In this document: positions 46,291 to 51,198 of the stretch, one piece after another
How positions within the stretch are numbered: the first letter of the stretch is position 1
How the letters are laid out: the number at the start of each line of letters is the position of its first letter
NCBI GenBank assembly: GCA_030549175.1
Contig: JAUKUA010000003.1
Coordinates: 5,270,001 to 5,334,000 of the forward strand
Direction of reading: 5' to 3'
Source: Lasiosphaeris hirsuta
Taxonomy: Eukaryota > Ascomycota > Sordariomycetes > Sordariales > Lasiosphaeriaceae
DNA: 64,000 bases
Program-made: the position numbers and the translations under genes
Notes under the pieces: model-generated
The model's input: only the letters and a program-made list of their open reading frames with translations
Told to the model about the DNA's origin: nothing
Databases searched by the model: none

Positions 46291-47421
46291 TCATCCAAAC
46301 TGTACAGGCCCGCTGATGCTGCCAAGAAATTGTACGCCATTGCCCGTGTTATTGTTCTGAGTGCCCCCAGGAGCATTAAATTGCAATCCTGAACCGAAGT
46401 GGTTATATGAGGAGCCAAATCGTTGGTTGGCCTGCGTCTCTGCACTTGTCAACAACAGTGGTGTTGACGTCGACCGACTGGCAGCTGCGGAGGCTGGAGC
46501 ACTAAGCTGTGCTTTCCATCTGACAAGTTCGCCAAGCAGCCGCTTGTACCCATTGTCCTCAACAGATCGGAACCTAACCATGTCTCCGTGATTGGCGTGG
46601 ATACTGAAAGCGCTATAGCCCTCGAGAGTGGCTGATTCCTTAGACACAACCTTCCCAACCACAGGCAGAGGCAACTCCTCAAAGAAGCAAGTAACCTCGA
46701 GACGCCTACCGTCTTCTCGTAGCTCTCGAATCATTGACCAGAACCGAATCTGGAGTGATTCAAGCAGCTGGTTGTTAGTCTCCAGAATCTGCAGTAGCGA
46801 CTTGTTGGTTGACTTGATGAGACCGAGGGCAGAAGCCGGTATCTTTGCCCAATCGGCCACCCACGATCCCTTGTGGGGAGTGCCCATGAACACAATGCCC
46901 CTGAGGGACTCGAAGATGCCGCGGAGATGATGCTCAGGGTTGTTTCGTGACATCAGAATGGTCTCCTTGCAGACGAGGCCCCCCAGGCTGTGGGCAATGA
47001 AGATCAAGGGACGGTTCGGAGCATCATTGAGAGCCCGGTCGTTTGTCAAATCAGTCAAGAGGTTTGTGGCGTGGTCAATGAGCCGGTTTTCGGAGGCGGT
47101 TGAGGTCGCTTTGGCTATGTAGGCGTCGTAGCCGTAGGAGAGGATGCGAGCTCCGGGAAGTTTGAGTGGGAGGAGCGTCTGGGGCCAGAACTCCCCTTGG
47201 GCGGTCCAGGTGCTGTCGCGGTCGCCAGTCAAACCGTGGACAAAACAAATGTCAACAGCGGCGTCGGCACAGTCGTGCAGCACTTTGACCCCGTCTGGAA
47301 AGGCAGATGGGGGTTTCTCATAGGACGAGCCACTCTCATCGCTTGGGTCCTGTCGATGGGAGTTGCCCGATTGTTTCCTCGATCTGAAGATCCGTAAGAG
47401 AAGTGGTTGGCGTTGCTTCAT
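46291..47421 (-). CDS. Lipase-like alpha/beta hydrolase with C-terminal sigma-type amyloid motif (SesB-like)
   Basis: Single exon, 376 residues, apparently intact. The alpha/beta hydrolase domain holds VDICFVHGLTGDRDSTW, the nucleophile Ser145 in FIAHSLGGLVCKE, GIVFMGTPHKGSWVADWAKI and a His278 in SIHANHGDMVRF, as in the DUF676/SesB-type serine hydrolases. After a short linker, residues 342-376 form a Gly/Asn/Gln-rich pseudo-repeat: GSGLQFNAPGG, then GNGVQF, then GPVQFG. This matches the sigma class of fungal prion-forming motifs, by family memory. In such systems a STAND receptor carrying the same motif templates the amyloid fold onto the effector, which then acts on membranes and kills the cell. 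The head-to-head neighbour starting at 48063 carries a related motif at its N terminus, which strongly supports the reading. Amyloid formation here is inference. Confidence 0.88.
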   Translation of the reverse strand: MKQRQPLLLRIFRSRKQSGNSHRQDPSDESGSSYEKPPSAFPDGVKVLHDCADAAVDICFVHGLTGDRDSTWTAQGEFWPQTLLPLKLPGARILSYGYDAYIAKATSTASENRLIDHATNLLTDLTNDRALNDAPNRPLIFIAHSLGGLVCKETILMSRNNPEHHLRGIFESLRGIVFMGTPHKGSWVADWAKIPASALGLIKSTNKSLLQILETNNQLLESLQIRFWSMIRELREDGRRLEVTCFFEELPLPVVGKVVSKESATLEGYSAFSIHANHGDMVRFRSVEDNGYKRLLGELVRWKAQLSAPASAAASRSTSTPLLLTSAETQANQRFGSSYNHFGSGLQFNAPGGTQNNNTGNGVQFLGSISGPVQFG

Positions 47422-48062
47422 CTTTCAATGTGCGATAGACTAACCAAAAATGTGCCAGTAATCTCAATCCTACAGATTTTCCAGACAAGGCACCTAAGCT
47501 CAGACAAGATAAGAGGGATCTGGTGAATTTTAGAGTTGTTGACCTGGGAGGCGTTGAAGGGACGAAAAGGGAACCTTGAAGGGCAGGGCCGCCGGAAACG
47601 GTGCCCGGGTGCCTCTTTCCAAAATGCTGCCCAACTAATAAGGTAAACGGCTTTCAACCAGTTGCGGGTCAGAGGCTGAAGTGGCCGGAGTGGATAGGTT
47701 GGGCGCAACGCGCGCTTCAAAAACTGAGGCGTGGGGATTCGACGAATAATGGGGCTCTTCTGCCTGCAGTTCGACGCATTTCCTGGGACCTGCCATCGAT
47801 TTGAGCCACTTGACCCCTCACACAATTCACCTGCCCACTGGTGAAAAAGTCATAGAGAGGCATGCAAGCCCAATCCAGGCCCGCGGTGAAGATTCCGTAT
47901 GCACATTTCCGTCTTCTCTTGCGACTCTCCATCGTCCATCGCTCATCTTGTCGGCAGAGCCGAGGAGCTTTGATGGACTCACCCATTGTCGCTTTACCGT
48001 TATCGCTCCCCGACATGCCAAAAACCTGATACAATAGACTCAGCAGATACACCTAACAAACC
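47422..48062. promoter_or_regulatory. Divergent promoter region of the sigma-motif gene pair
   Basis: 641 bp between the start codons of the SesB-like effector and the receptor relic. No coding segment is convincing. Shared regulation is suggested only by the layout. Confidence 0.45.
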
Positions 48063-50406
48063 ATGGCAGAACTAGCGGACGAAGATCCTCTGCAGTTGAG
48101 CGGTGGGTCGGCAGGCTCCCAGTCCTACACCCGGCACGGGTCTGGGTCCCAGTTCAATACCCCCGGAGGCCATCAGTTCAACGCCTCAGGTAACGGCACC
48201 CAGATAGCCGGTGCTACAATCCACGGCAACGTACAAATCGGTGAGCCGTCGCATAATATCTTCATTTCCTGTGACATGTACTGATTCACCAAGATAACGG
48301 ATGGAACCGAGAGGACAGGGTTGATGAAATCTTGGCGTAACTCGACGCTTTGGCATACGAAGCCCGGAAAGACCGAAATCCAACCCGGACGCCAGGCGCA
48401 TGCAACTAGTTCATCTCTTACGGCCACTTCTAACACTGGCAAGAAAGCAAGGCCGAAGCCTTGCTTTAGGTATCTGCTGATCCTGGGTGCGAAAAATCAG
48501 TCCTGGCGAAGCACCTAGATACTCGCTCAGGCCCCAAGAATCTCACAGACTCCTTGTAGAGATTTGCATCTGGCACCTACTCCTGAAGGAGTTTGAGTCA
48601 CACTCCGTCCATCGAGATCACCGGGTCTTTCTTGACTACTCTGCCAAGAATTGGCCCGCCCATTTCCGTCAGCCTCAGACCGAAACCTCTCAAGACAGTT
48701 TGATACAACCAGTCCTCAGGATTTGTGACACAAACTCACCTCGCTTCGAGCTGTGGTTCTGGCTGTACTGGGAAATCACCACGACACAATACCCTACGCA
48801 CTTTACCCGGCTCATGACCGCGTCTTATTTTGGACTCACAAGAGTGGTGGAGCACCTCCTAACATTCAAGCCAGACTTAAGTGGTCTCAATGCCCGAGAT
48901 AATATACTCCGCTGATCAGCACTATCCTGGGCTGCCGGAAACGGGTTCGACGACGTCGTTCGGTCACTACTCGCGGGTGGGGGGGTCAAAAGAATCATCA
49001 AGTTTTAGAGGCGAGCTGAAATCGATTCGGAGGATGTCGACAGCCGAACTCCACTTACATATGCTGTTTGGAGTGGGAGTGCAGCCACTGAAAATTCCCA
49101 TCAGATCTGGCGCTTGAGTCGACTCGAAAGACAATATTGGTGGCACGCCGCTATCTTACGCCGTCTGCAACGGGAATGAAAGTTTGGTGAGGCTCCTGTT
49201 CAAGGCAAGGCAGAAATTCAACTCGGAGGACGAGATCAGAATGTATCTGCTGTTTTCCATCATCGACAAAGAACAGGAGGCTGTGGTCAAACTCCTTCTC
49301 AACACCAACAAGGTTGATGTCAATACGATACGATCAGATTCAACACCGCTATTATCTGCGGTAAATATTGGTCACGAAGGAATTGTGAAACTTCTTCTCA
49401 ACACCGGCAGGGTCGATGTTAATATGGGGATAGGAAAATTCACGCCGTTGCTACTCGCGATAGATGAGAGAAACCCGGTTATAGCACAACATCTTCTCGA
49501 CACAGGTAAGTTAGACGTCAATAAAATCAACGGAAAGGAATTTACACCACTATTGTTTACAATAGCTTACGGAAAAGAAGAAATGGTTGAATTTCTTCTC
49601 TCCACGGCCAAGGTCGATGTCAATATGAGTGTAGGAGACTTTACGCCGCTGTTACATGCGATGCATGGTAAGAATGAGACAATTGTAAGGCTTTTCTCCT
49701 CAGCACAGGCAGCGTCGACGTCAAAATGAGGGTAGGAGACCTCACACCGATCTTGTACGCATTGTAGAACGGCCAAAAGAGTATTGTGAAGCTGCTTCTC
49801 AAGACCGACAAGGTTGACATCACGGCCAAGATGATGGTAAAGAGTTTGATGTCACTGCTATTTGCCGTAGAGAATGGAGATGAGCACCTTACAGCTCTCC
49901 GTCTCAACAAAGGTAAGTTCCATCTTCATTCGATCCCGGGTTCATTGGTATTCCCATGGGTGATAGAGAGAGGATATGAGAGCATTCTAGAGCTACCTCT
50001 CAACAACAACAACAACAACAATAACAACAACAATGTCAACTGTGACATGGGACTCAGGGGTTACGGGGGGTTAACTTTCTCTATAGTACGGAGTAGGAAA
50101 GCGAAGATTGTGAAGCTATTCCTTGATACCGGCAAGGTTGATGTCAATGCAGTGGATAAATGGGGAGAATCGCCGATTTCATACGCGAGGAGGAAAAGTC
50201 TGGATGGCATTGTGAAGCTACTTCATAAGGCAGGCAAGGCTAAAGTGAAAAAAATGAGAACCGCCTACAAAGACCACTTGGAAGCGGCAAGGGGGAGGGG
50301 GGGTGGTAGCCTTGTCAAGATACCAACATCGTATGATATAGTTAGGCATCTCAGTGACAAAGGAATGGCTTTGGTGGCAATAGTTGTTGAAGGTTGCCTA
50401 GCATAG
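48063..50406 (+). pseudogene. Decayed STAND receptor: sigma motif - NACHT remnant - ankyrin repeats
   Basis: Exon 1 (48063-48240) is intact: MAELADEDPLQLSGG... followed by GSGSQFNTPGG, GNGTQI and GNVQIG, a sigma-type amyloid motif like that of the neighbouring lipase. A GTGAGC to CCAAG intron (48241-48293) leads into a NACHT N-terminal region in one frame, broken by stops at 48338, 48407, 48431, 48467 and 48557. Two of these sit where family members have Trp (TC-W and LLW). The Walker A remnant DPGCEKSVLAK (48479-48511) has Glu in place of Gly. Directly after 48556 the frame changes to the post-NACHT segment VEICIWHLLLKEFES...FLDYSAKNWPAHFRQ, so most of the NACHT and winged-helix part is deleted. 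Ankyrin units follow in changing frames to 50406 (for example TPLLSAVNIGHEGIVKLLLNTGRVDVN). The gene cannot make a full receptor. Confidence 0.87.
50006..50038 (+). repeat. AAC trinucleotide tract inside the ankyrin relic
   Basis: About eleven AAC/AAT units in a row, coding polyasparagine in the ankyrin-relic frame. This looks like microsatellite growth in a gene no longer under strong constraint. Confidence 0.75.
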
Positions 50407-51198
50407 CTCCTGTAAGTAAAAACGTCGATCAACTCGTAGATACTAGTACTCTATATACATTATGAAAACCTAAATATACCCTTTGATACGCTAAAAGTGG
50501 TATTTTTAATGCTAAAAAGACTACATTGGAGTTTCTATATCCTCTTATGACATTATTTACGAGTGTGCTTATACACAGGAAGAATGTTAAATTAGTTGTG
50601 GGTATTCCATGAAGCGAGAGCTGTTCTATAAGATCTAATTAAAGCGCTCCCAGCACTCTGGGTCTTGCGTAACAAGCTCCCGAGATTGTTACGTCTCTTA
50701 AATACTACGACTAGGTACTTAGGATTACTACCATCTTCTCATGTGAGCCCACCGTGAAAGTGGAAACATACGTTGATATCGTAGTCTAATGAGCTACCTA
50801 CGGACTAGTTAAACTTGATTATATTCTACGTACGCCATTACCTTTATGTAGTACCAAGTCCCAATCGTAGTAATTGCTAAAACTCCTACTCACTGGTTTT
50901 CCTTACACAGATTGGCACTAAAATTGAAAAGTTTACCACTCTGTTACATATTATTGGTTTTCAGCAACCGTCTAAATTCCTCTTTACTAGACATCGAAGT
51001 TTTATTGACCTGAGTGAGGCATCATGACAAACTACCAATAAATCACTGAGAGGCTTCAAAAGCATATGCTATCCGAGTTTAAGTCATCTTCTAGAAACAT
51101 GTCTAATGCAGCAGGTTTTCTCGCACCATCTCCCCACATCCCATTGATACAGGACAACCCGACCCCCGCCACACCATCTCTCAAACGACCTTCTTCCC
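50407..51198. other. AT-rich gene-free block
   Basis: About 0.8 kb, clearly richer in A+T than its surroundings (many tacta, attat and ttaaa words). No gene, terminal repeat or transposase remnant is recognisable. It may be old repeat sequence altered by C-to-T mutation. Confidence 0.5.

Follow-up and report, generated by a model that had tools for sequence, protein, structure and literature searches.

The divergent gene pair at positions 46291–50406 of the window, the 64,000-nucleotide stretch of Lasiosphaeris hirsuta DNA analyzed here, is best explained as a sigma (NACHT_sigma) amyloid-signaling locus of the SesB type, whose effector is intact and whose receptor has become a pseudogene (probability about 0.9). 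The motifs in both genes, the domain architecture, and the damage to the receptor are observed directly. An earlier note on this DNA had proposed that the locus is, or was, a sigma effector/receptor pair of this kind, and the "or was" proved apt.

The hydrolase gene and the receptor relic

The effector gene occupies 46291–47421 on the minus strand and encodes, in an uninterrupted frame, a lipase-like alpha/beta hydrolase of 376 aa with an AHSLGG nucleophile elbow and a C-terminal sigma motif (46294–46413, minus strand; residues 337–376). Its identity is 97% to an L. hirsuta record (P0002), 85% to P0003 of L. hispida, and 60%, over 96%, to the Fusarium SesB P0052. Among 7996 candidates scored, 1017 proteins were related at E 0.001, and the first 17 of the 120 relatives listed (P0002–P0018) all carry PF17106. 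Of 41 aligned sequences, chosen from 121 and including the query, 40 have S145 and every one has H278. The AlphaFold model, with a mean pLDDT of only 62.9, places S145 between a strand (139–144) and a helix (147–159), and the 50 Foldseek matches listed for it are mostly esterases, lipases, and thioesterases; the lipase profile found no sequence relatives in the PDB at E 0.01. The Ses_B profile PF17046 had no match in the L. hirsuta genome, a result that is uninformative because its control likewise matched nowhere. With an alpha/beta hydrolase domain, a conserved nucleophile, and a C-terminal sigma motif all present, the lipase is, judged by its sequence, a SesB-family effector with an intact frame.

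Relaxed constraint on the effector was considered and, at the resolution available, is not seen. The L. hirsuta and L. hispida rates do not differ (11–15 versus 11–19 unique changes with seven outgroups; largest chi2 1.58), and among 162 columns where at least 90% of the 41 sequences agree, P0001 departs at nine and P0003 at four, the highest count being 21.

The start codons of the two genes lie 641 bp apart across a divergent intergenic region (47422–48062), the adjacency of effector and receptor that marks a sigma gene cluster. On the plus strand, the neighbor opens with exon 1 (48063–48240), which encodes a sigma motif without stops or frameshifts. A 53-nt intron (48241–48293; GTGAGC...CTGAT...AG), predicted from sequence and frame agreement, puts this exon in the frame of a NACHT remnant (48284–48517) whose aligned block overlaps the last 10 nt of that intron. 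The remnant runs for ~78 codons up to the P-loop, with four in-frame stops, and its P-loop reads GCEKS versus GCGKS in relatives, one residue being replaced. At 48517, the frame changes and ~342 codons of the NACHT/winged-helix region are absent relative to residues 128–469 of P0122, a sigma-NACHT-ANK protein that matches the relic in two stretches of 49% identity flanking a 342-residue gap. Next come the decayed post-NACHT region and the initial ankyrin repeats (48517–49086, two in-frame stops); then, after a further frame change, ankyrin repeats whose single in-frame stop falls early in the block (49088–49711); and, after another frame change, repeats with one in-frame stop ahead of the terminal stop (49687–50406). 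Ank_2 is recognized in 49118–49729 at E 2.7e-24, and position 50406, where the earlier note ended the locus, is indeed the last stop codon.

The N-terminal sigma motif and the repeat domain of a sigma STAND receptor are thus present, although exon 1 and the ankyrin repeats no longer share one open frame; an intact NACHT/NB-ARC NTPase is missing, given the deletion, the four stops, and the altered P-loop. Of the NACHT/ankyrin region described previously, only the beginning of the NACHT survives, and the ankyrin repeats are split between two frames with further stops. The neighbor is best classed as the remnant of a sigma-NACHT-ankyrin receptor, a pseudogene. With ~342 codons lost, eight in-frame stops in its homologous segments, and frame changes besides, it is predicted to be unable to work as encoded, contrary to the view of it as a functioning partner.

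RIP was rejected as the cause of the decay. RIP is indicated by TpA/ApT of at least 1.1 together with (CpA+TpG)/(ApC+GpT) of at most 0.75. Only one of 254 half-kilobase windows passes, at 50501–51000, downstream of the relic; at 50251–50750, which overlaps the relic's last bases, the first index is raised (1.32) and the second fails (0.89).

Sigma motifs in the two genes

The C-terminal end of the lipase is FGSGLQFNAPGGTQNNNTGNGVQFLGSISGPVQFG, and the divergent exon encodes HGSGSQFNTPGGHQFNASGNGTQIAGATIHGNVQI. The earlier note had claimed paired sigma-type motifs here and named a profile search against known sigma motifs as the check. Both match PF17106 (NACHT_sigma) in a profile scan, the lipase C-terminus at 55.4 bits (E 6.5e-15) and exon 1 at 44.6 bits (E 1.5e-11), each clearing the curated 27.6-bit cut-off. 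These scores are ordinary for the family, the lipase motif lying inside the range of five other sigma lipases scanned (41.8–63.7 bits) and the relic motif inside that of eight sigma receptors (32.8–60.1 bits); the suggestion that the motif sequences might be new is not supported. An exon-by-exon search of the 44.4-Mb genome found PF17106 above the cut-off at two places only, head to head at this locus (the lipase motif reaching 59.7 bits in that search), and exon 1 itself, used as a query, matched only itself and the lipase motif (E 5.7e-5).

PMC3321046 describes the sigma motif as three submotifs of types A (GxGxQFNxx) and B (GGTQNINT). By eye, both motifs follow this plan: GSGLQFNAP, GGTQNNNT, and GNGVQF in the lipase, and GSGSQFNTP, GGHQFNAS, and GNGTQI in the relic, with B degenerate and the last unit ending in I instead of F. 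The alignment over about 35 residues claimed at the outset was recovered as 35 columns with one gap and a score of 95; 5000 shuffles of the lipase motif gave a mean of 29.8 (sd 6.0) and a maximum of 60.

Sigma extensions are reported to group by cluster (PMC3321046). At this locus, the likeness of motifs within the cluster does not exceed that between orthologues, a test that is weak because the receptor motif is decaying. Against 121 listed lipase C-termini, eight others outscore the adjoining lipase in likeness to the relic motif and three tie with it. Decay or reshuffling could account for this, or the pairing may never have been tight.

Known sigma systems and competing explanations

The closest known counterpart is the ses locus of Nectria haematococca (sesA/sesB/het-eN), a sigma infectious element (PMC3321046). 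It shares with the L. hirsuta locus a SesB hydrolase with a C-terminal sigma motif, an adjacent STAND receptor with an N-terminal sigma motif, NACHT, and ankyrin repeats (here, in the ancestral state), and an intron near the receptor 5' end, predicted in the relic. It differs in having a third sigma gene such as sesA, none being found here above the cut-off genome-wide, and in L. hirsuta the adjacent receptor is a pseudogene. The ankyrin sensor had been thought possibly new; it is not, because the founding sigma receptor het-eN bears ankyrin repeats (PMC3321046), NACHT-ANK is named among the architectures bearing such prion-like motifs (PMC4986451), and sigma, NACHT, and ankyrin are combined in nine of the 120 proteins listed among 1648 matches to the relic query. 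The best local matches to P0122, P0145 of Fusarium keratoplasticum, and P0222 of Aspergillus flavus show 50, 44, and 37% identity over 23% of the relic query; unlike the relic, these fungal sigma-NACHT-ANK receptors have complete NACHT-type domains.

When exon 1 and the NACHT remnant together served as a protein query, 28 matches came back, none with PF17106 listed, a point against the favored explanation; the remnant apparently dominated this search. No protein named as L. hispida appears among these 28, and none so named and carrying PF17106 appears among the 120 listed relatives of the relic; since the searches covered annotated proteins of a limited length range, many of them unnamed, rather than genomes, L. 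hispida may still have an intact receptor. The L. hispida protein P0156 has a HET-NACHT-ANK architecture.

The receptor-templates-effector mechanism put forward in the earlier note is the published model for the sigma family. In the ancestral receptor, a ligand would have bound the ankyrin repeats and NACHT would have driven oligomerization, clustering the N-terminal sigma motifs so that they could fold into an amyloid seed; once this seed had converted its C-terminal sigma motif, the SesB hydrolase would be switched on. By analogy, amyloid folding, templating, and cell death may be supposed at this locus. At present, neither oligomerization nor sensing should be possible for the adjacent receptor, which most likely leaves the lipase an orphan that only a sigma conformer, spontaneously formed or imported, or some other receptor could set off.

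One such receptor, acting in trans, would be a NACHT-ankyrin protein on contig C9 with a divergent sigma-like motif in a putative upstream exon (C9:1844475–1844567), an unlikely driver of the lipase. Its motif immediately precedes an open NACHT-ankyrin frame of 735 aa, and 1 of 5000 shuffles of the C9 motif attained its score against the lipase motif (11 of 5000 against the relic motif); signaling between non-adjacent genes is discussed in PMC9815663. The motif stays below the Pfam cut-off, however, with 25.9 bits in the genome-wide scan and 24.9 bits for the ORF, and covers profile positions 3–32 only. No effector with a sigma-like tail was seen beside it, either in the first 60 and last 50 residues of ORFs of at least 130 aa within ~10 kb on each side or in the ORFs of L038, and the exon-by-exon genome search found no effector other than the lipase with a sigma tail above the PF17106 cut-off.

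It is improbable that the relic still yields a free sigma peptide of 73 (unspliced) or 74 (spliced) residues that seeds or dampens the lipase, a receptor-independent switch like prion-only HET-s. Exon 1 is the only undamaged part of the receptor, and its motif scores like those of other sigma receptors; in Podospora het-s strains, the prion still works beside a divergent nwd2 pseudogene (PMC4344463). Yet chance alone would be expected to spare an exon of this length (P 0.36–0.50). In the het-s case, moreover, the effector is no longer toxic, but this lipase retains its conserved active-site residues. That the pair functions as encoded, its lesions being introns or assembly errors, is very hard to sustain. 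In its favor, neither the sigma exon nor its intron is damaged, and there are further open stretches. Against it stand four stops within the first 78 codons of the NACHT remnant, an altered P-loop, the loss of the NACHT core, a contig of 6.3 Mb, and open flanking frames such as GH10 and a carbon-nitrogen hydrolase. Chance likeness between Gly/Asn/Gln-rich, low-complexity tails can be dismissed, for although both stretches are compositionally biased, none of the 5000 shuffles attained the observed score, both match the curated profile at the E-values above, and the domains around them are those expected.

An effector without its adjacent receptor

Mechanism and architecture being established, the SesB-type locus described here adds one more example to a known kind of pairing; the unusual part is the intact effector beside a decayed receptor. 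The Podospora anserina het-s/nwd2 haplotype offers a parallel, with divergent genes ~0.6 kb apart and a receptor pseudogene (PMC4344463). There, the motif is HET-s, not sigma, the effector is a HeLo pore-former rather than a hydrolase, and nwd2 was broken by a transposon scar, unlike the relic; the effector also lost its toxic function, a loss of which the lipase gives no sign. By this analogy, the locus might be the sigma counterpart of the het-s haplotype, receptor loss having freed a receptor-independent transmissible switch, with the hydrolase triggered by conformers from a fusion partner in allorecognition and the exon possibly making free peptide; we regard this as a long shot.

The locus is useful as a natural case of an effector that has outlived its adjacent receptor. 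Should other haplotypes of the species carry an intact receptor, one could ask whether receptor loss converts immune signaling into self/non-self recognition of the prion type, outside Podospora and with a different motif.

A SesB-family lipase with a C-terminal sigma motif

An uninterrupted alpha/beta hydrolase frame of 376 codons lies at 46291-47421 (-). In a Pfam scan, its last 40 residues match the sigma motif NACHT_sigma (PF17106; curated cut-off 27.6 bits) at 55.4 bits (E 6.5e-15), and its core scores 20.8 bits against DUF676, barely over the 20.3-bit cut-off. Of 7996 candidates scored, 1017 proteins were homologous at E 0.001; among the best 120 of these, PF17106 is present in all of the first 17 (P0002-P0018), and Fusarium SesB itself (P0052) shares 60% identity across 96% of the query. 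When the lipase was aligned with 40 homologues selected from those 120, S145 of the AHSLGG elbow was conserved in 40 of the 41 sequences and H278 in all 41. The AlphaFold model has a mean pLDDT of only 62.9, with the sigma region not confidently modelled, and includes well-scored core stretches in which the strand, S145, and helix follow in the expected order. Esterases, lipases, and thioesterases make up most of the 50 Foldseek matches shown, and TM-scores across these 50 are low (0.26-0.36 by query length).

The L. hirsuta lipase record P0002 is identical to the window lipase wherever both read; the differences, a start further upstream and a gap of 10 residues, look like matters of gene modelling. 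Its public model (region 46291-48060) starts in an upstream exon inside the divergent intergenic region and lacks the 10 residues, as though 30 nt had been called as an intron, too short to be plausible. Of the two models, the single-exon frame looks better.

A decayed receptor, probably of sigma-NACHT-ankyrin type

The divergent neighbor starts 641 bp away, between start codons, with a 178-base sigma exon (exon 1, 48063-48240 (+); splice position predicted) that scores 44.6 bits (E 1.5e-11) in Pfam. The alignment of the two motifs covers 35 columns, including one gap, and its score is reached by none of 5000 shuffles, confirming the paired sigma motifs proposed in the earlier note. That note was also right about the kind of pair, effector and receptor, but overlooked that the receptor is dead. 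In tblastn with a sigma-NACHT-ANK relative (P0122), residues 49-127 match 48284-48517 and residues 470-667 match 48517-49086, with ankyrin segments beyond 49086 in two more stretches, each frame-changed. Because the matches jump from residue 127 to 470, ~342 residues, the bulk of the NACHT and winged-helix region, are absent at 48517. The homologous segments hold eight stops (4 + 2 + 1 + 1), and the P-loop reads GCEKS versus GCGKS in relatives. A predicted 53-nt intron would put the sigma exon in frame with the NACHT remnant, resembling het-eN, which has an intron in its 5' region (PMC3321046). The receptor was most likely once a sigma-NACHT-ANK protein and cannot be one now. Counting stops, frame changes, and the deletion gives 8-12 lesions in 2.1 kb, of which 0.7-1.0 would be expected in exon 1; it has none, and since the chance of this is 0.36-0.50, its intactness is no evidence of selection. 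The stretch 3' of the relic (50407-51050) is AT-rich (GC 0.37), with no repeat family identified, and holds the only segment to pass both RIP-type dinucleotide thresholds.

Neither the ankyrin sensor nor the sigma motif is new, contrary to what had been suggested. NACHT-ANK is listed among the architectures bearing prion-like motifs in PMC4986451, and PF17106 occurs in 10 of the 120 receptor relatives listed, nine of them also listed with ankyrin domains. Eight of these 10 were scanned. All exceeded the cut-offs for both sigma and NPHP3_N (NACHT-type), and ankyrin repeats were present in seven.

The motif pair within the genome and beyond

A genome search with the NACHT_sigma profile (E up to 1), run exon by exon so that an intron-split motif could be missed, found four places: the two window motifs and two below the cut-off (25.9 and 19 bits). 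The window pair is the sole above-cut-off pair found by this search in 44.4 Mb; one of 14 control genomes, E. coli, gave a match, under the cut-off. With exon 1 as the query (E up to 10), the search matched nothing beyond exon 1 itself and the lipase motif. Motif extensions group by cluster, according to PMC3321046. When the relic motif was compared with the C-terminal 60 residues of all 121 listed lipases, motif-bearing or not, eight outscored its neighbor and three tied, with a Fusarium protein on top. Against the lipase motif, two N-termini among 147 listed receptor-type proteins outscored the relic (127 and 102 versus 95). The match is thus a good one, though not private. Querying proteins with exon 1 joined to the NACHT remnant brought up 28 matches, and PF17106 is listed for none of them. 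These comparisons speak against a tight pair.

Elsewhere in the genome, the lipase has its nearest relative (67% identity) on contig C9 at 4.967 Mb; together with the frame adjoining it, this relative spans L040:3614-6853 (G000:C9 4966613-4969852). The relative stops ~30 bases short of an open frame that has a NACHT-type match and what look, by eye, like ankyrin repeats; the relative's own frame gave no sigma match. If an intron joins both frames, this locus is probably the fused version already known for this effector. A SesB-like lipase relative with stops lies at L039:3411-4136 (G000:C10 37410-38135); its open tail ends Gly/Asn-rich and sigma-like, with no Pfam match, and downstream open frames resemble NB-ARC/TPR by eye; this may be a second effector/receptor pair that has decayed or diverged. 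A further NACHT-type gene, at L050:7795-9743 (G000:C8 5341795-5343743), ~8 kb past the window end, has a PF24883 match at C8:5342847 and an N-terminus that looks HeLo/SesA-like by eye.

Present role of the effector

A partner acting in trans is possible, the candidate being an open 735-aa NACHT-ankyrin frame at L038:1083-3739 (G000:C9 1842082-1844738 (-)). The exon upstream of it encodes a divergent sigma-like motif, but at 24.9-25.9 bits this falls beneath the 27.6-bit cut-off, and a look at the surroundings turned up no effector whose tail matches. A free sigma peptide from the relic is also possible. The layout is strikingly like that of the Podospora het-s haplotype, where toxic function has been lost (PMC4344463); unlike het-s, the window lipase gives no sign of such loss. 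In sequence, it changes no faster than the lipase of L. hispida. The lipase is most likely an orphaned or receptor-independent effector.
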